A stretch of 34,591 nucleotides of DNA from an uncultured Treponema sp. (GTDB lineage Bacteria; Spirochaetota; Spirochaetia; Treponematales; Treponemataceae). The notes beneath the pieces are model-generated. The model saw nothing but the letters and a program-made list of their open reading frames with translations. It ran no database searches and was not told the DNA's origin. Position 1 is the first letter of the stretch. Each line of letters begins with the position of its first letter. The stretch is taken from the NCBI GenBank assembly GCA_946540605.1, contig CAMNIU010000145.1:1-34591 (forward strand), written 5' to 3'. Positions 11,484 through 30,759 of the stretch are shown piece by piece. The translations under genes were made by a program, and so were the position numbers.

Positions 11484-11626
11484 GACCCCGAAACAAGTTC
11501 GGGGTGACGGATTGCCACGTCGCTGGCGCTCCTCGCAATGACGAAACAAACAGAGTCATTGCGAGACAGAAGTTTCGTCATTACGAACAAAAAGACTCGT
11601 CATTGCGAGCGCAGCGAAGCAATCTA
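11484..11626. repeat. composite palindromic repeat cluster between convergent genes
   Basis: The cluster opens with a B-type half element at 11484-11508 (GACCCCGAAACAAG, then TTCGGGGTGAC). An A-long element follows at 11510-11542 (GATTGCCACG, then CTCGCAATGAC). A degenerate A copy lies around 11555-11585. The final element is A-short at 11599-11626 (GTCATTGCGAGCGCAGCGAA, then GCAATCTA). Its last base abuts the parB stop, so parB reads TAA followed in frame by the repeat's TAG. The elements can fold into a long hairpin separating M18 from parB. Confidence 0.8.
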
Positions 11627-22707: not shown

Positions 22708-23601
22708 TTATTTGCTGTCTATATCCAGAAGAAGATCTGCATTTACAGAATCTCCTGAATAATGAATTACAACAAGATTACCTGTTTTTTCCGCTGTAAG
22801 ATTTTTTACTCCGGAAAGTTTATATACATAGGAGTTTTCATTTTTGTGGTCCTGCACCAGCGATGGCTGCACGCGATATGTTAAAGTAGAACCATTGGAT
22901 CCAATCGTCTTAAAAAGCATATAAAAAGTTTCAGTACGAACCTGCTGATTTACAAAATATCTTCTGTCACCGGTAAGTAAAAAACTTCCATCCGGTTCTG
23001 TATCGCTGAAGAAAACTTTTGTGAGAGAATCAGCAATATTATAACCATTGATTTTGAAACGAAGAATAGAAGGCTCACGCTTCTTAAAATTTTCAGAATC
23101 GGCTTTTACAGCATTTAATTCATTTTTCTCTTTTGCACTTGCATTCTGCTGTTGTTTTTTCAAATCATTAAGCCCATTCAAAACCTGCTGCAAAAGAACG
23201 TTTGTCGAAGAAGTTGTATTATAATTCGACATATTTGACGTTGTATCTAGAGAAGACAGATTACTGAAAAGTCCCGAATCATAAAGTGATGAAATGTCAT
23301 ATGCCGTCAGAATATTTCCTTTTGTCAGATTTGAAGCAAGTACACTTTCCGGGGTAATTGATTCTGTGAGTATAGTTTCTGTCTTTTCTTTCCCCGGCTC
23401 TGTAGTTGCTGTCTTGTTATTTTTATTATTCAGTCTTGTTGGAAAACTCGGTGTATAAAAATCTCCGCCGACAGTTGGCATAGACGGCATTTCCGGCATG
23501 TCAGGCATATCAAGAGACTGTGCAAAAACAAAAGCATTAAAGCTGCTCCACATCAAAACAATTGATGCAAGAACAGTCTTTTTTGATTTACATATTTGCA
23601 A
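22708..23601 (-). CDS. secreted protein with repeated Met-Pro motif, unknown family
   Basis: About 297 residues run from a TTG at 23601, chosen because GGAGG lies 6 nt upstream and because it begins a good signal peptide (QICKSKKTVLASIVLMWSSF, then NAFVFAQ). An upstream TTG at 23676 would overlap the previous gene by 89 nt. The mature N-terminus has MPDMPEMPSMP, repeated xMP units, and then a long Ser/Thr/Asn-rich linker. A coiled-coil stretch near 155-180 and a C-terminal beta-rich domain (about 180-297; FKINGYNIADSLTKVFF, YFVNQQVRTETFYMLF) follow. No known family is recognised. It overlaps the SprT-like gene end by 14 nt and so is translationally coupled. Confidence 0.72.
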   Translation of the reverse strand: MQICKSKKTVLASIVLMWSSFNAFVFAQSLDMPDMPEMPSMPTVGGDFYTPSFPTRLNNKNNKTATTEPGKEKTETILTESITPESVLASNLTKGNILTAYDISSLYDSGLFSNLSSLDTTSNMSNYNTTSSTNVLLQQVLNGLNDLKKQQQNASAKEKNELNAVKADSENFKKREPSILRFKINGYNIADSLTKVFFSDTEPDGSFLLTGDRRYFVNQQVRTETFYMLFKTIGSNGSTLTYRVQPSLVQDHKNENSYVYKLSGVKNLTAEKTGNLVVIHYSGDSVNADLLLDIDSK

Positions 23602-24400
23602 GACTTTCCTCCACGTATTCAAGACGTTGTGTAAGCTGAGCAATTGTTTTTTCAAGTCGAGACTTTTCTTTTTCAAGTTTTGTTTTAGGATCCGTACCTG
23701 CTGCCTGAGCAGATTTCTGCTTCATCATCTCGCGTACAGAAGAAGGACTCTTTCCACCAGCAAGGAATTCCTGTTCTACTTGAGCACGGTCATCCTTCTT
23801 TTTTACACTGGCAACTACTTTCATATTTTCAAAACCAATTGCCGGATTTACTTCTACAGCACCTACCTTGCGGATATCTTTTGCGGCATTGCGAGGCATG
23901 CAAAGTACACGGTCAATATAATCTTCATAGCGGATATCAGCTTCTTTACAAAGGTCAAAAGCACGTGCAAGTTTTTTGCCGAACTCCTGCATAAGCTGTC
24001 CGTTTTTAGCAAGATAGTTCTCTTTGATATCCAGAGTGAGAGCCTTAAGCTCCTCGTTATTTTCCCATCCAATTGAGTAATAACCTTTTTCCTCGGCAAT
24101 TTTCAAAAGCTCGCCAAACTTAGCCCAAAACTCCTGAGTGTGAACCTTGCAGGCTTTTCCGTAACTAGGGTCATTTTCCTGCTTTTCTATAGTACAAAGA
24201 TGATGGGTATATTCGTGAACTGCTGTATAAATCAGCATGTTATCAGATTTAAAATTCAGATTATGAAGATAGATTTCATGTGTATCCGGCTGATAAAATC
24301 CGTTTACACGCTTGCTTTCTTTACCTGTCTGGATTACTGTAAAGTCTATTTCGCTTGGAGCTATGTCCAGCAGGATTTCTTTAATTCTTTCGTTATTCAA
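23588..24400 (-). CDS. SprT-like zinc-metalloprotease-fold protein
   Basis: This 270-residue cytosolic protein carries HEYTHH at residues 62-67 (HExxH zinc site with Glu63 as candidate catalyst). A further His87 in VHTQEFW gives the H..EF pattern of SprT-like proteins. The middle is helical, and residues 225-268 form a clear coiled coil (TKLEKEKSRLEKTIAQLTQR). It may be an SprT-like peptidase, but no substrate can be inferred. The start is TTG, with AGAAGAGG about 8 nt upstream. It is the first gene of a compact run down to the VanY gene. Confidence 0.72.
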   Translation of the reverse strand: MNNERIKEILLDIAPSEIDFTVIQTGKESKRVNGFYQPDTHEIYLHNLNFKSDNMLIYTAVHEYTHHLCTIEKQENDPSYGKACKVHTQEFWAKFGELLKIAEEKGYYSIGWENNEELKALTLDIKENYLAKNGQLMQEFGKKLARAFDLCKEADIRYEDYIDRVLCMPRNAAKDIRKVGAVEVNPAIGFENMKVVASVKKKDDRAQVEQEFLAGGKSPSSVREMMKQKSAQAAGTDPKTKLEKEKSRLEKTIAQLTQRLEYVEESLANM

Positions 24401-24522: not shown

Positions 24523-26301
24523 TTAGAACTGATAGCTTGCACCAAGACTTACGAAACTGTTCTTGTGCCATGCGTAGAATTCGCTGTCTTCGTCTGCACA
24601 GTGAATGTACATTCCGCTAGCTGTAAGTGTAAGGTTCTGATCCGGCTTAAATGCAAGCTTTGGCAGAACGACGAGGTCGCCGCGTTCAATTCCGTACATT
24701 ACAGTTACTTCCGGAGCAATTTTGTCATTTAAGAATGATGTAGTTACATTAGCAACAACTTTGTTATTTGAATAACCTTTTTTGTTGTAATCTACATCCA
24801 TTGTATTTTTATCGCATTCATCACCATGCAGAACAAAAGTACCGGTTTCCTGAACGTTCAGGTTTGCATTCCAGAACGGAAGGTCAATATCAAAACCGCC
24901 AAGCCATGCGATGGAATTATTGTGTACCCAAGGATTGCTTCCGTCTGTATCATCTGTAAGATTATAAGCAAACTCACCGCGTACATTGAAGTGCCAGATG
25001 ATTGAAGACATCTCAAGCCCAAAGGTCTGCTTTCTGTCGTATGCAAGGAACTTGTCAGATTCAGAAACTTCACCATTAGCAAGATATGTCTCAAGGAAGT
25101 TGTTCAATTTGCTTGCATTGAAAGATGGCTGCTTGTACCAGCCATAGTAATAACTCAAGCCCATATCAACCTGACCAAGTGTCCAGGTAGCGCGGCTACC
25201 AAACTGACTGTATTTAAGAGTCCAGAGGTCCGGGTAGATATTATCTGAAACTGATGTAACATTGTTTAATGCCAGCGTATATGCTGTATCAGCCGCAGTA
25301 AGTTTGTTCTGATAATCAGCCGCCTGTGCAGCTGCATTTTTGGCTGCTGCAGTATATTCAGCCGCAGCTTTTTCCTGAGCAGTTTTTTCTGCAGTACAGT
25401 GAACGATGGCCATTGTTGCCTGCTGAATCTGAGCCTCAAGCGCACTTGTGTCCTGACCGGCTTTTTTTGCAGCAATAATTCCTGCTTTTAGCTGTGCAAT
25501 CGCATTTGTATATTCAGTTATCTTATTACCATATTCAGTAGCCGCAGCTGATGCAGCAGCAGCCTGCAACTGAGAACTCTTTTCTATAGTTGTAGCTGCA
25601 GCAAGCCCTGTTCTTGCAGTTTCACAATCTGTAACAAGTTTCTTTACATACATTTCAGCAGAAGTTGTCGCAGCCCCAGTCAAAGCTGCAACCTGCGCAG
25701 GAGTCCAGCGGCCATCTGTTGCAAAACGGTCAACTGGCAAAAGCGGTGTATAAACGCCTTCAATATTCATGTTAGCAAATGGAAGACTATATACAGCACG
25801 AATCATTGGAGTGCTTATGCGACGGTCCAGATAATCTGGAATGATAAAATCTGAATAATCGTCTGCATTGAAATTGTCGAGAACGTGAAGTTTATCTCCC
25901 TTGCCCCAGACAACTTTCATTTTTCCAGCTTCAAGAGTCAAGTTTCCAAAATAACCACGAAGCACTGCTTCATCAATTACATCGGCCGGATGATTTTTAA
26001 TTGTGTCTTCATCAATCTTGAAATTGAGTTCTACATCAGATTTTGTTCCACTGTATTTTAAGTCGAGAGCAGCAGATGGAGTTGCTTCGATTTCTACTTT
26101 ATCAGCCTTAGCCTCATCAACATCTACATAAGCGCGGATTTCTGTATCCACACTTCCGTTTACTTCGAGTGCAGAAACAGCACCAGATGAAGACTCTCCA
26201 CCAAAATCACCGAAATCTCCAAAGCTGTCGAAGTCATCGGCATAAGCAGCAGCTCCCATCAAAAGAGCCGATGTCATAAGAATGTATTTATTAAGTTTCA
26301 T
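24523..26301 (-). CDS. outer-membrane beta-barrel of the RND export operon, with helical insertion
   Basis: This 592-residue protein has a signal peptide (MKLNKYILMTSALLMGAAAYA) followed at once by an Asp/Phe/Gly tract (DDFDSFGDFGDFGG, residues 22-35). Barrel-like strands run from about 45 to 195, with LEAGKMKVVWGKGDKLHVLD and PDYLDRRISTPMIRAVYSLP. The insertion at about 200-350 is Ala/Gln/Glu-rich and helical, probably a coiled coil. Strands resume to a terminal aromatic (VSLGASYQF). Apart from the insertion it resembles DUF1302-type porins that accompany RND exporters and LolA-like proteins. It is third in that operon. GAGGT lies 5 nt before the ATG. The Asp-Phe-Gly tract is also present in the RND protein of the same operon. 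Confidence 0.82.
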   Translation of the reverse strand: MKLNKYILMTSALLMGAAAYADDFDSFGDFGDFGGESSSGAVSALEVNGSVDTEIRAYVDVDEAKADKVEIEATPSAALDLKYSGTKSDVELNFKIDEDTIKNHPADVIDEAVLRGYFGNLTLEAGKMKVVWGKGDKLHVLDNFNADDYSDFIIPDYLDRRISTPMIRAVYSLPFANMNIEGVYTPLLPVDRFATDGRWTPAQVAALTGAATTSAEMYVKKLVTDCETARTGLAAATTIEKSSQLQAAAASAAATEYGNKITEYTNAIAQLKAGIIAAKKAGQDTSALEAQIQQATMAIVHCTAEKTAQEKAAAEYTAAAKNAAAQAADYQNKLTAADTAYTLALNNVTSVSDNIYPDLWTLKYSQFGSRATWTLGQVDMGLSYYYGWYKQPSFNASKLNNFLETYLANGEVSESDKFLAYDRKQTFGLEMSSIIWHFNVRGEFAYNLTDDTDGSNPWVHNNSIAWLGGFDIDLPFWNANLNVQETGTFVLHGDECDKNTMDVDYNKKGYSNNKVVANVTTSFLNDKIAPEVTVMYGIERGDLVVLPKLAFKPDQNLTLTASGMYIHCADEDSEFYAWHKNSFVSLGASYQF

Positions 26302-26462: not shown

Positions 26463-27254
26463 TTATTTTCCTGTAGTCAAAAAGTTCTGTGTGAATACTC
26501 TGTCTGGAAGAGGCTTATCAACCTCAACCTTAAGAATCTTAAGAGTTGTGCTATGGCCTGTCTGAACGTTCTTGAGTTTGTTTTCCATTGGCATGTCGTA
26601 ACCGTCAATTTTCTGAATGTTCAAAACTTCGAGAACCTTTACAAGCTTGTCGTTCTTGTCGTACATCTCTGTGTGAATAGGATACATTGTCTCTTTATCA
26701 ACCCAAACCATGCGGTAGTTGTACTGAGTGCCTTTTTTGTCGAGAGGAACTTCTTTGATTACATAGCAGTCGTAAGACTTGCCACTCTCTACGGTAATTG
26801 ATTCCTCGCGAAGGTACTGGTGGTCGTCCTCTGAAACGTTGCGGGTTGAAAGATCATCATAAGTTGCATCTGAACCCATGAAAGATTTTGAACCTTCGCT
26901 AGAGTTTACACGGCGAACTGATTTCAAAGATGGCAGATAGATGAACTTGTCATCCGGCCCATTGTCATTTGTAATCTGAAGGAAGCGGGTATCCTTTACG
27001 TTAGCAGGTCCCTTAAAGTCCATTACAACGTAAGTCTTACCGTCGGCTTCTTTTCCGTACTCAATAATCTGGCGGTCTTCTTTTGAACCACTCTTGTCCT
27101 GCAGGCTCATAATTACCTGGCTGCGGGAAAATGCAGGTTTTTTGAAGTCTGCTACAGTTGTCATAATTTCAGTTCCCTTTGCATCGGCGAAAGCTGATCC
27201 AGCGAAAATTGTAAGTGCAGTCAAAACTGCGAATGTTTTAGTTAATTTCTTCAT
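26463..27254 (-). CDS. LolA-like periplasmic outer-membrane lipoprotein-sorting protein
   Basis: This 263-residue protein has a signal peptide (MKKLTKTFAVLTALTIFAGS, then AFA). The rest shows the LolA/LppX-like half-barrel pattern of the PF17131 type (QVIMSLQDKSGSKEDRQIIE, KFIYLPSLKSVRRV, SFMGSDATYDDLSTRNV). Such proteins are regularly encoded next to MMPL/RND exporters and are thought to carry a hydrophobic molecule, perhaps lipid, through the periplasm. The cargo here is unknown. AAGGAG lies 8 nt before the ATG. It sits between the RND and barrel genes, which supports a three-part envelope-spanning system. Confidence 0.88.
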   Translation of the reverse strand: MKKLTKTFAVLTALTIFAGSAFADAKGTEIMTTVADFKKPAFSRSQVIMSLQDKSGSKEDRQIIEYGKEADGKTYVVMDFKGPANVKDTRFLQITNDNGPDDKFIYLPSLKSVRRVNSSEGSKSFMGSDATYDDLSTRNVSEDDHQYLREESITVESGKSYDCYVIKEVPLDKKGTQYNYRMVWVDKETMYPIHTEMYDKNDKLVKVLEVLNIQKIDGYDMPMENKLKNVQTGHSTTLKILKVEVDKPLPDRVFTQNFLTTGK

Positions 27255-27357: not shown

Positions 27358-30195
27358 TTATTTTGCTTTTTTAGAAATGAATTTTGGTTCGAACACATTC
27401 AAAATTCCAGGAATGATTGTCATTGCGAGGTAGCTTGATGTGAACATTACGATTGCAACCAGTACACCGATGTAACGGAGTACGACGAACTTAGAGAAGC
27501 AGAGAACGAGGAAGCCAAGTCCTACTGCCAGTGCGTTTGTTACAATTCCGTGGCCACTCTTGCGGAAGGTCTCGCGGGTAACAATTTCCAGGTTGTCTGT
27601 TTTTGCACGCTCTTCCTTGTAGGTTGTAAGGAAGTGGATTGTGTAGTCTATGCCGACACCTACTGCAACAGATGCTATGATGCTTGTTACAAGATCAAGA
27701 TTGATTCCGGCAAAGCCCATTACCATGTAGTTCAAAAGAATTGCAAGGGCAAGAGGAACCGCACCAACAAGTCCGGCCCAGGCAGAACTAAAGGCAATTG
27801 TGATGATGATGAATACAGAGATGAGTGAAATCAAAAGGCTCTGAACCTGGCTTGATACAATCATCTTTGTCATTGTGTATTCCATTTCGCCGGCACCTGT
27901 TGCTTCGATTGTGTAGCCTTCAGGGAAGTGCTCTGCAGCAAAGTTCTTTGCAGCGGCGATGATGTCTCCTGTTTCTTCAGTTGAGTGATTGCGAAGCTGA
28001 CAGGTAACACGCATTACACGAGGGCTCATATCATCATCAACAAAGCGGTCGAGTGAGCCGCTGAGCAAGGTAAGATAACCGTTTACAACACCTGCAAGTT
28101 CTTCGCGGGTAGGAACAGGATACTTTGCAGGATCGTATGGAATCTCGTAGTAAGCCATTCCATTGTAATTGCACTCTTTTTCAAGTTCGGTAAGCATTTT
28201 TTCCGGTGTAGCATTTTTTGCTCCGGCGGCAACATAAGCGCGGTTGAGCATTGCAAGAACTTCTTCTGTTGTCATAGGCTGAGAAAGTTTCTGAGCGTAT
28301 TCAATGTTAGGATCAACCCAGTCTGTATCTGCAACGGCTGAAGTTGATGCTGTTTCTTCTGCAGAACCGAAATCTCCAAAATCATCGAATCCATCATCAG
28401 CAGCAAAGTCATCTCCAAAGTCACCAAAATCGCCGAAATCATCAAAACTGTCAAAATCATCAAAACCATCAGTGTTGGCAGTCTGTGGCAAAAGCATAGA
28501 GTCATCACCGGCAGCTGCGTCAGTACCTGCGACATCCGCATTCTCAGTACTTGGCACATGCCATACCTGATTTATTCGTTTTATGAAAGTTGTGAAAGAA
28601 ACAATCTTACCAATTCCATCATAATTTTCTGCAAGGTAAGTCTGCATATCATCAACAGCCTTCAAAATCTCAGGCTTTGTAAGGTCGCCCTTTTCCTGAC
28701 CGGAAATTGTAAAGTAAAGGCTGTTAGTTCCGGCAAAGTTTTTATCAATAGATTTTATATCCTGACGAAGTTCACAATTCTCCGGGAAGTAATTTACGAT
28801 TGCTGTATCAATCTTAAGCATGCGAAGGCCGGCATAAGAGATGCCCAGAATAACCAGAGTAAAAAGAACAAGACGAACACGGCTGCCACAGAAGAAGTGA
28901 TAGATGTTATAAAGTGTATTACCACTTGCATCTTTCATCTCCTTTCCACCAGCAAGCTGACGGGCACGTTCAAGACGACGCTCAACTTTTTCAGTAATGT
29001 GCTTCATCTTTTCGCGGCCAGCCTGAACCTTTTTAAAATCCTTAGTCAAAAGCAAAGCTGGAATAAAAGTGATAGAAAGAAGGAGAGCAATTCCAACGCC
29101 AATTGCAGTAAAAATTGCAAAACTGTGAAGTGGTTCAATTGGACTTGAAACAAGTGAAATAAAACCTACTATTGTAGTAATTCCGGCAAGGAGGACAGCC
29201 TTCATTACTTCTTTAAGTCCTGCAAAAATTGCTTCAACATATTTTTCACGGGTAAGCTCTCCTTCTACCCCATCAAGTGCAACATAATAATGTGTAAGAA
29301 CATGAATACCATAAGCAGAACCAACGGCAATCAAAGCAACAGGAATAACACTGGAAACCAGTGTAAAGGTAATTCCAAGTAATGCCATAAGCCCCATTGT
29401 CCAGGCTGCGGACATAACAACTGTAATCAAAGGAAGTAAGGTTCCATCCACAGTCTTAAAGCTGAAGAACAATGAAAGAAGAACTACAACAATTACAAGT
29501 GGAATCAAGGCAGCCAGGTCAGAAATCATAAAGCTTCGTGCACTTTCTGCAACTACAGGATCACCATAAATCTTATAAACCAATGGCTGTCCCTCGCACT
29601 CCTCTACAACTACCTGACGAACCTGTTCAAGAATCTTCTGCTGACGTTCAGCATCTGTAATTTTTGAAGTGGCCTTTTCTTCCGGTGTCATTGAATGAAT
29701 TGTAATCTGCATCTGAGTAGCAGTATTATCGTCGTTTACAATAACACGGTTATACATGTCACTCCATTCAGCAAGTCGAGCCTGCAGCTGTTCAATATCC
29801 GCTTCGGAACCAGTGTAAGAATCCGGGATAAGCTGGTTTGCAGAAATCGAGCCATCAGATTCACATACATAATCAATATGAGTAAGTGAATCTACACCTT
29901 CAACTTCATTGAGGTCCAGACAACGGTCTGTAATTTTTCTTACAACTTCAATGTTTTCCGGTGTGAGAATAGTACCTTTTTTTGATTCAAGGCTTACGCC
30001 AATAACAATCATGCTTCCAAATTCATCTTCAGTTTGAGTCAGTCGAGTATAAGAAGCATCTTTTTGTGGCAGGAATTGACGGATTGAATTATCAATTCCA
30101 AGTCCTGTAATAAAAAATCCGAAAACGCCAGTGAGAATCACGCAAATTGCAATGATTATCCACGGACGTTTGAAAAAAGCCCTAGCTGCTTTCAT
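27358..30195 (-). CDS. RND/MMPL-family exporter
   Basis: This 945-residue protein has the duplicated RND plan: TM1 at about 11-33, periplasmic loop 1, TM2-6 at about 225-390, a charged cytoplasmic linker, TM7 near 440-460, periplasmic loop 2, and TM8-12 at about 770-935. The second-half relay motif GIDYTIH near residue 850 keeps the Asp-Tyr pair of MMPL proteins. In the first half the matching motif is GSAYGIH near 291, with Ala for Asp. Loop 2 holds an Asp/Phe/Gly tract at about 573-610. It is a proton-driven exporter of a probably lipid-like substrate and the first gene of the operon. A good Shine-Dalgarno (AAGGAG) precedes the ATG. Confidence 0.9.
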   Translation of the reverse strand: MKAARAFFKRPWIIIAICVILTGVFGFFITGLGIDNSIRQFLPQKDASYTRLTQTEDEFGSMIVIGVSLESKKGTILTPENIEVVRKITDRCLDLNEVEGVDSLTHIDYVCESDGSISANQLIPDSYTGSEADIEQLQARLAEWSDMYNRVIVNDDNTATQMQITIHSMTPEEKATSKITDAERQQKILEQVRQVVVEECEGQPLVYKIYGDPVVAESARSFMISDLAALIPLVIVVVLLSLFFSFKTVDGTLLPLITVVMSAAWTMGLMALLGITFTLVSSVIPVALIAVGSAYGIHVLTHYYVALDGVEGELTREKYVEAIFAGLKEVMKAVLLAGITTIVGFISLVSSPIEPLHSFAIFTAIGVGIALLLSITFIPALLLTKDFKKVQAGREKMKHITEKVERRLERARQLAGGKEMKDASGNTLYNIYHFFCGSRVRLVLFTLVILGISYAGLRMLKIDTAIVNYFPENCELRQDIKSIDKNFAGTNSLYFTISGQEKGDLTKPEILKAVDDMQTYLAENYDGIGKIVSFTTFIKRINQVWHVPSTENADVAGTDAAAGDDSMLLPQTANTDGFDDFDSFDDFGDFGDFGDDFAADDGFDDFGDFGSAEETASTSAVADTDWVDPNIEYAQKLSQPMTTEEVLAMLNRAYVAAGAKNATPEKMLTELEKECNYNGMAYYEIPYDPAKYPVPTREELAGVVNGYLTLLSGSLDRFVDDDMSPRVMRVTCQLRNHSTEETGDIIAAAKNFAAEHFPEGYTIEATGAGEMEYTMTKMIVSSQVQSLLISLISVFIIITIAFSSAWAGLVGAVPLALAILLNYMVMGFAGINLDLVTSIIASVAVGVGIDYTIHFLTTYKEERAKTDNLEIVTRETFRKSGHGIVTNALAVGLGFLVLCFSKFVVLRYIGVLVAIVMFTSSYLAMTIIPGILNVFEPKFISKKAK

Positions 30196-30405: not shown

Positions 30406-30759
30406 ATGGTTGTTGATAAGAGTGAAATAAAAAAAACACTGAAGACATTTAACTCATGTGTTCCATTTTTCATTGCAATGAGCGATGAATATCGTCAGCA
30501 ATTAATTATGGATATTGCCGAAGCTGGCCGCGAGGGAATAAATGTTTCAAACCTCTCTGCAAAATCAAAGCTTTCTCGCCCTGCAATTTCGCATCACTTA
30601 AAAGTTCTTAAGGATTCAGGTTTAATTAAACCAAAGAAAATTGGAACCCAAATATTCTATCAGTTGAACCTTAGCGAAAATTTTAAGATAGTTTCTGAGT
30701 TGATTAATTCAATGGAAAATATTCTTTCGAAAATCAATGAAATTGAACCGGAAAAATAG
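30406..30759 (+). CDS. ArsR-type winged-helix regulator
   Basis: This 117-residue protein has a winged helix at about 25-100: SDEYRQQLIMDIAEAG, then VSNLSAKSKLSRPAISHHLK with the recognition helix, then a wing in KPKKIGTQIFYQL. It lacks the ELCVCDL-type metal site of classical ArsR/SmtB sensors, so a non-metal signal is more likely. It faces the RND/LolA/barrel operon and is the natural candidate to control it. The start appears leaderless. The stop codon TAG is the first triplet of an A-type palindromic repeat. Confidence 0.88.
   Translation: MVVDKSEIKKTLKTFNSCVPFFIAMSDEYRQQLIMDIAEAGREGINVSNLSAKSKLSRPAISHHLKVLKDSGLIKPKKIGTQIFYQLNLSENFKIVSELINSMENILSKINEIEPEK

Follow-up and report, generated by a model that had tools for sequence, protein, structure and literature searches.

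Covarying aromatic tracts in an RND exporter and an outer-membrane barrel of one operon are candidate docking tags for a LolA-like carrier

Results

An exporter, a carrier and a barrel in one operon

The window, a 34,591-nucleotide stretch of DNA from an uncultured Treponema sp., carries three adjacent reverse-strand genes with no same-strand gene between them. The first encodes an RND/MMPL-family exporter of 945 aa (27358-30195, reverse strand), whose MMPL domain (PF03176, E 1.7e-41) scored 142.7 bits against a Pfam gathering score of 20.5. HAE3 (TIGR00921) was its best NCBIfam match, though at 251.6 bits the protein falls below the curated cut-off of 351.9 bits. The second gene (26463-27254, reverse strand) encodes a LolA-like periplasmic carrier of 263 aa that lies well above the PF17131 gathering score (E 1.1e-59; 201.7 versus 30 bits). 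Its AlphaFold2 model (pLDDT 89) found its best PDB match in Porphyromonas gingivalis LolA3 (9tp6, TM 0.82/0.90), followed by 3bk5 and 4z48, and the closest named relative judged by this protein is Treponema bryantii NK4A124 (LolA 97% identical). The third product, of 592 aa (24523-26301, reverse strand), was modelled by AlphaFold2 as an outer-membrane beta-barrel with porin-like Foldseek matches. It matched no Pfam family at E values up to 0.1, DUF1302 included, and resembles the DUF1302 outer-membrane protein solely in its barrel fold and gene position. No second periplasmic protein of the AmeC kind is encoded in the operon. An ArsR-type HTH protein (30406-30759, forward strand; PF01022, E 1.5e-8) is encoded divergently from the operon and is its candidate regulator.

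Other features of the locus were recorded alongside. The barrel model contains a two-helix hairpin of ~150 residues (202-354), placed between strands with high confidence. Counting strands would put this hairpin on the outer face. Relatives differ widely in the length of their barrels. Downstream of the barrel gene and on the same strand lies an ORF (23588-24400) with an HEYTHH motif and a weak, below-cut-off match to the putative metallopeptidase family DUF6782. An intergenic repeat containing GTCATTGCGAGGAGC occurs at window positions 11528, 24488, 26427, 30798 and 34221, where it flanks several genes, and is present as 54 exact 15-mer copies in the genome, compared with 0 for a reversed-pattern control.

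Both membrane proteins carry an Asp-Phe-Gly tract

The original prediction was that the exporter and the barrel protein two genes away share an Asp-Phe-Gly tract in the periplasm. Inspection of both ORFs confirmed this, with the LolA-like gene sitting between them. Exporter residues 577-610 (28366-28467, reverse strand) read GFDDFDSFDDFGDFGDFGDDFAADDGFDDFGDFG and were placed by hydropathy between TM7 (442-460) and TM8 (787-805), that is, in the second periplasmic loop; the underlying DNA is a tandem array with a 9-bp period (28416-28471). The barrel precursor begins with a predicted signal peptide (residues 1-21, 26239-26301, reverse strand; MKLNKYILMTSALLMGAAAYA), assigned from the sequence with its cleavage site placed by pattern alone. 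It ends in AYA and is followed at the mature N-terminus by DDFDSFGDFGDFGG (residues 22-35, 26197-26238, reverse strand). AlphaFold2 assigned a pLDDT <50 to residues 12-41, indicating a disordered tail, with the porin-like barrel thereafter. The tail consists of Asp, Phe, Gly and Ser and lacks His and Met, so it is not of the His/Met-rich metal-binding type.

Specificity of the tract within its own genome rests on pattern searches. A 17-base degenerate pattern coding for DFGDFG had four matches in the 3.06-Mb assembly (85% complete), all of them in the RND and barrel genes, which argues against chance. The looser pattern [DEG]F[DEG][DEG]F[DEG] returned isolated single motifs in other ORFs of the same 85%-complete assembly and no second tract. 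These searches thus gave no sign that the tract is common among unrelated secreted proteins, and genome-wide low complexity was rejected as its source. Across 98 relatives, a DFGDFGDF-coding pattern matched six times, each time in the RND gene of this operon family. Because our definition of the barrel tag was permissive, we applied a stricter motif control: at least two motifs were present within the first 30 mature residues of 63/85 family barrels, compared with 10/244 other signal-peptide proteins from the same loci.

The two tags are present or absent together

Co-occurrence was assessed in about 60 regions around LolA-like genes of relatives and in 80 named loci. The linked RND-barrel pairs of the tract type numbered 68. 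The tag was present in both proteins of 67 pairs and in neither protein of one (L045). No pair had it in one protein alone, the outcome that would have counted against the original prediction. Four loci were omitted from this count by hand. One of them (L166) has neither loop insert nor tail, and the other three (L053, L071 and L135) have both tags by eye, the automatic ORF ends, frames or tract choice being wrong. A further pair with both tags, from T. ruminis (L145), was missed automatically, its LolA and barrel ORFs having been displaced by an overlapping antisense ORF. Tagged pairs are spread over the spirochaetes and also occur in Halanaerobiales and Candidatus Mcinerneyibacterium. On average the exporter tracts hold 7.0 motifs and the barrel tails 4.0.

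The same genomes encode a paralogous RND-LolA-barrel family with a shorter exporter (~790 aa), which lacks the loop insert and whose barrels begin untagged. The loop tract is likewise absent from the cassettes of Prevotella, Haliovirga, Ilyobacter, Thalassospira, Pseudoalteromonas and Photobacterium, and their barrels, where found, have no matching tail. These tag-free outgroup controls span Bacteroidota, Proteobacteria and Fusobacteriota. Since homologous cassettes exist without it, the tag is not required for the basic mechanism.

Tag type covaries between exporter and barrel

Where the exporter tract differs in type from that of the window, the barrel tail differs with it. The exporter motif DDWGSDFG is accompanied by DFDDWGSF in the barrel (L038), DDWGDSGDDWGD by QDDWGSD (L055) and LDSWG by DNWDSWD (L041). 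Families f3 and f5 have FGFG in exporter and barrel alike, and AFGFGTE is identical in the two proteins of L071. In T. ruminis (L145) the exporter has LPSFGDDSAVPSFGDDSSIPSFGDD and the barrel LPSFDTPSDNSIPGFGDESGSLPGFE (PSFGDD and PGFGDE types). TTSSFYS is paired with SDSFYSG in a Halanaerobiales MAG (L173), TSSFGEE with FGDDFGSS in Natroniella (L175) and TTSDFGN with SDFGSS in Ca. Mcinerneyibacterium (L182). The matched switches at DDWG (L038, L055), FGFG (f3/f5), L145, L071 and L182 are independent. The DDWG pattern is near chance level genome-wide, yet the operon holds 4/5 of its matches in one genome (G035) and 2/4 in another (G021).

Among 44 representatives (<80% RND identity), tag k-mer similarity was 0.169 for own pairs and 0.079 +/- 0.011 for shuffled pairs (0/5000). 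Label shuffling gave 0/5000 in the subset with at least 50% RND identity to the window and 9/5000 in the distant subset (<45%). Independent contrasts, for which the RND tree was inferred from sequences stripped of the tract, showed correlated change for Trp fraction (r = 0.57, sign-randomisation p 0.015), [FW][ST] (r = 0.52, p 0.0016), FGF (r = 0.42, p 0.022) and [FW]G (r = 0.37, p 0.0004); DF and GF, two of the eight features, were not significant. The longest shared peptide averaged 4.48 residues, compared with 3.53 for shuffled pairs (0/10000) and 3.32 when the residues of the tail were shuffled. Loss of the match in the latter case indicates that residue order counts in addition to composition.

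These data bear on a second suggestion of the original prediction, that the tracts form a metal-binding strip. Binding of metal or protons, for example by a Ca2+ or copper strip, would suit the acidic residues that many tags carry, and barrels of the PcoB type have metal-binding disordered N-termini (PMC12509749). The tags show no His, Met or Cys pattern, however, and across the matched types the aromatic residue is what stays constant at the core. The acidic positions change (SDFGSS, DSFYSG, LPGF), leaving no conserved ligand set. We consider this role very improbable.

The match lies in the protein and not in the DNA

Nearly identical peptides within one operon might also be produced if the tract had been copied between the genes by duplication or gene conversion, an element spreading within the operon as the prediction had put it. 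The longest nucleotide run shared by the two tracts averaged 9.8, compared with 9.7 for random synonymous codons, and the simulated maximum was exceeded in only 1/44 operons. Since the two tracts resemble each other in their DNA no more than random synonymous codons would make them, the tract match is, to judge from the sequences, a product of selection on the protein and not of recent DNA copying. Such spread as an ongoing process is contradicted by these runs and we find it scarcely credible as an explanation; an ancient single copying event may have taken place.

Repeat number in the exporter tract differs between two near-identical RND copies in one genome (G003), and from this length difference repeat slippage probably supplies the variation in the tract. 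A short tandem array of variable repeat number is also what would be expected of convergent drift towards acidic Gly/Ser/Phe-rich disorder, shaped by genome composition or 9-bp slippage and serving no common partner. Against such drift, the pair match persisted under the contrasts and under within-clade shuffles and was lost with residue-shuffled tails. In addition, no further tract was found in the window's own genome and the same-genome paralogues have none. Drift of this kind therefore appears improbable.

Parallel and unlinked systems

T. ruminis has two tagged systems, of types DFDFG/DFGFG and PSFGDD, each internally matched. In its complete genome a P[SG]FGD-type pattern had nine matches. 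The second operon accounts for five of them, its RND gene having four and its barrel gene one; the remaining four correspond to the chance level. This arrangement is informative about a third periplasmic factor not encoded in the operon (a chaperone, BAM or a peptidoglycan-linked scaffold, for instance), which might read both tags given that linkage of the LolA gene is circumstantial as evidence for a receptor. A general factor would have to be specific for each of the two matched tag types that share this periplasm, and N-termini of this kind are rare in the remaining secreted proteins of these loci (the 10/244 above, versus 63/85 barrels). We regard such a factor as quite unlikely.

In several genomes a LolA-RND pair is separate from a second LolA-barrel pair. 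Both proteins keep their tags, with a looser correspondence between them. It held well in L134/L189, L142/L188 and G001 and in part in L129/L190 and G109, and it broke down in L164/L186. The out-of-operon prediction for L164, whose exporter has DDPFA repeats (found also in L243), was thus rejected, the unlinked barrel reading QDFDDWGSSDYSEP; this is the sole clear RND-barrel mismatch that we found. In the unlinked cases the exporter tract occupies a second site of the same loop, preceding a GKxVSFTTFIKR segment, which suggests that tract position within the periplasmic loop may be free. Tracts at this second site were seen in L044, L046, L048, L049, L051, L056, L129, L137, L138 and L164. The LolA gene remains linked where the RND or barrel gene is not.

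The LolA-like carrier as candidate reader of both tags

The explanation that best fits a short aromatic peptide gained, lost and changed together in two different folds is a shared, system-specific partner. The LolA-like carrier is the natural candidate: its gene lies between theirs and keeps its linkage in the absence of either, no other component is soluble, and its fold is one that docks on partners at both membranes. We judge it an even call that the exporter tract and the barrel tail are matched disordered docking tags for one system-specific site, which would most likely lie on this carrier. The common docking tag of the original prediction thus holds up as a shared tag, given both-or-neither occurrence in all 68 pairs and the covariation of type, and the LolA-like protein is its plausible reader.

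Residue conservation in the carrier was examined with this in mind. Arg90 is near-invariant (98%) in LolAs of the tagged clade, and neither the short-RND paralogues nor the outgroups have it. The tagged clade has other group-specific basic positions as well. Together these lend weak support to tag binding. As proof of binding the signature residues were rejected: Arg90 is retained in the tag-less L045 and L166 and hence marks the clade and not tag binding. Net charge is -3 for the window LolA, and the LolAs of the tagged clade, averaging +1.4, are slightly more basic. The surroundings of the opening of P. gingivalis LolA3 are mainly positive (PMC13103446), which would suit acidic tags.

The main rival to docking on the carrier is direct contact between the two tags, the exporter tract and the barrel tail binding each other through aromatic/Gly stickers, in the manner of FG-repeat or low-complexity cohesion. 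They would thereby span the periplasm or gather into a small condensate, which also covers the phase-separating strip of the original prediction. Like-with-like binding would also produce a covarying aromatic type, the exporter tracts are multivalent (7.0 motifs against 4.0 in the tails), and the FGFG and SSFY tag types resemble sticker sequences. However, just one or two short motifs are present in some barrels (L055, L067 and L173 among them), short disordered arms would have to bridge the periplasm, and the LolA gene stays with whichever partner is linked. On balance direct contact seems unlikely.

Discussion

If the tags dock the LolA-like carrier, the exporter would display several copies in its periplasmic loop and the barrel fewer copies where its mature chain begins, facing the periplasm from the outer membrane. 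The carrier, as the putative common receptor, would be captured at the exporter, take up hydrophobic cargo and be captured again at the barrel, with binding helping transfer. To go by the MMPL and LolA families alone, the cargo would be a lipid or another hydrophobe. Differing tag types may separate parallel systems that share one periplasm. Tentatively, and with somewhat less confidence than for docking itself, the tags could be viewed as an address code: the carrier would read one and the same aromatic peptide at the inner and the outer membrane, and routes running in parallel within a cell would be kept apart as the code diverges.

These observations bear on how LolA-fold carriers locate donor and acceptor in RND-driven export of hydrophobes. 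Inner- and outer-membrane proteins of different folds retain one common short linear motif, and the covarying pair serves as an evolutionary readout of binding partners, through which short peptides could be used to test the route. The tags also offer a means to pair unlinked exporters and barrels. In keeping with the original prediction, which knew of no such description, our search of the open literature turned up neither a matched tag pair nor a common handle for the two membranes.

The cassette type itself, with RND exporter, LolA-fold protein and barrel, is already known. AmeABCD of Castellaniella defragrans combines an HAE3 RND protein, a LolA-superfamily/DUF1329 protein and a DUF1302 barrel (PMC6394551). 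It resembles the window in uniting an inner-membrane MMPL/HAE3-type RND protein, a periplasmic LolA-fold protein and an outer-membrane barrel in one operon. It differs in having AmeC as a second periplasmic protein, in its barrel, that of the window being without a Pfam match, and in that the available part of the report describes no shared tag (PMC6394551). The HpnN hopanoid exporter and MmpL lipid exporters belong, like the window exporter, to the MMPL superfamily, and matched it weakly yet significantly in HMM and PDB comparisons; the window protein lies far below the HpnN family cut-off. Unlike the window system, HpnN reportedly works with no periplasmic or outer-membrane partner encoded alongside it, as summarized in PMC6394551.

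The P. gingivalis LolA/LolB/LolA3 proteins provide the nearest comparison for the carrier, since among solved homologues LolA3 comes closest to the window LolA (33-34% identity). They share the LolA fold, and docking in the P. gingivalis pair is partner-specific (PMC13103446). In contrast to the proposed tags, LolA and LolB dock fold to fold, mouth to mouth, and no LolA3 partner was established in that study (PMC13103446).

For the barrel tail, the closest parallel is PcoB/PcoA of Caulobacter. There the tail is His/Met-rich and binds copper, the system has two components, and an inner-membrane exporter with a matching tract is not described in the available part of the report (PMC12509749). 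Like the window barrel, PcoB is an outer-membrane barrel with a disordered N-terminal tail in the periplasm, and that tail serves an operon-mate, stabilizing PcoA and being proposed to dock it (PMC12509749). A disordered barrel tail in the service of a periplasmic partner thus has a precedent.
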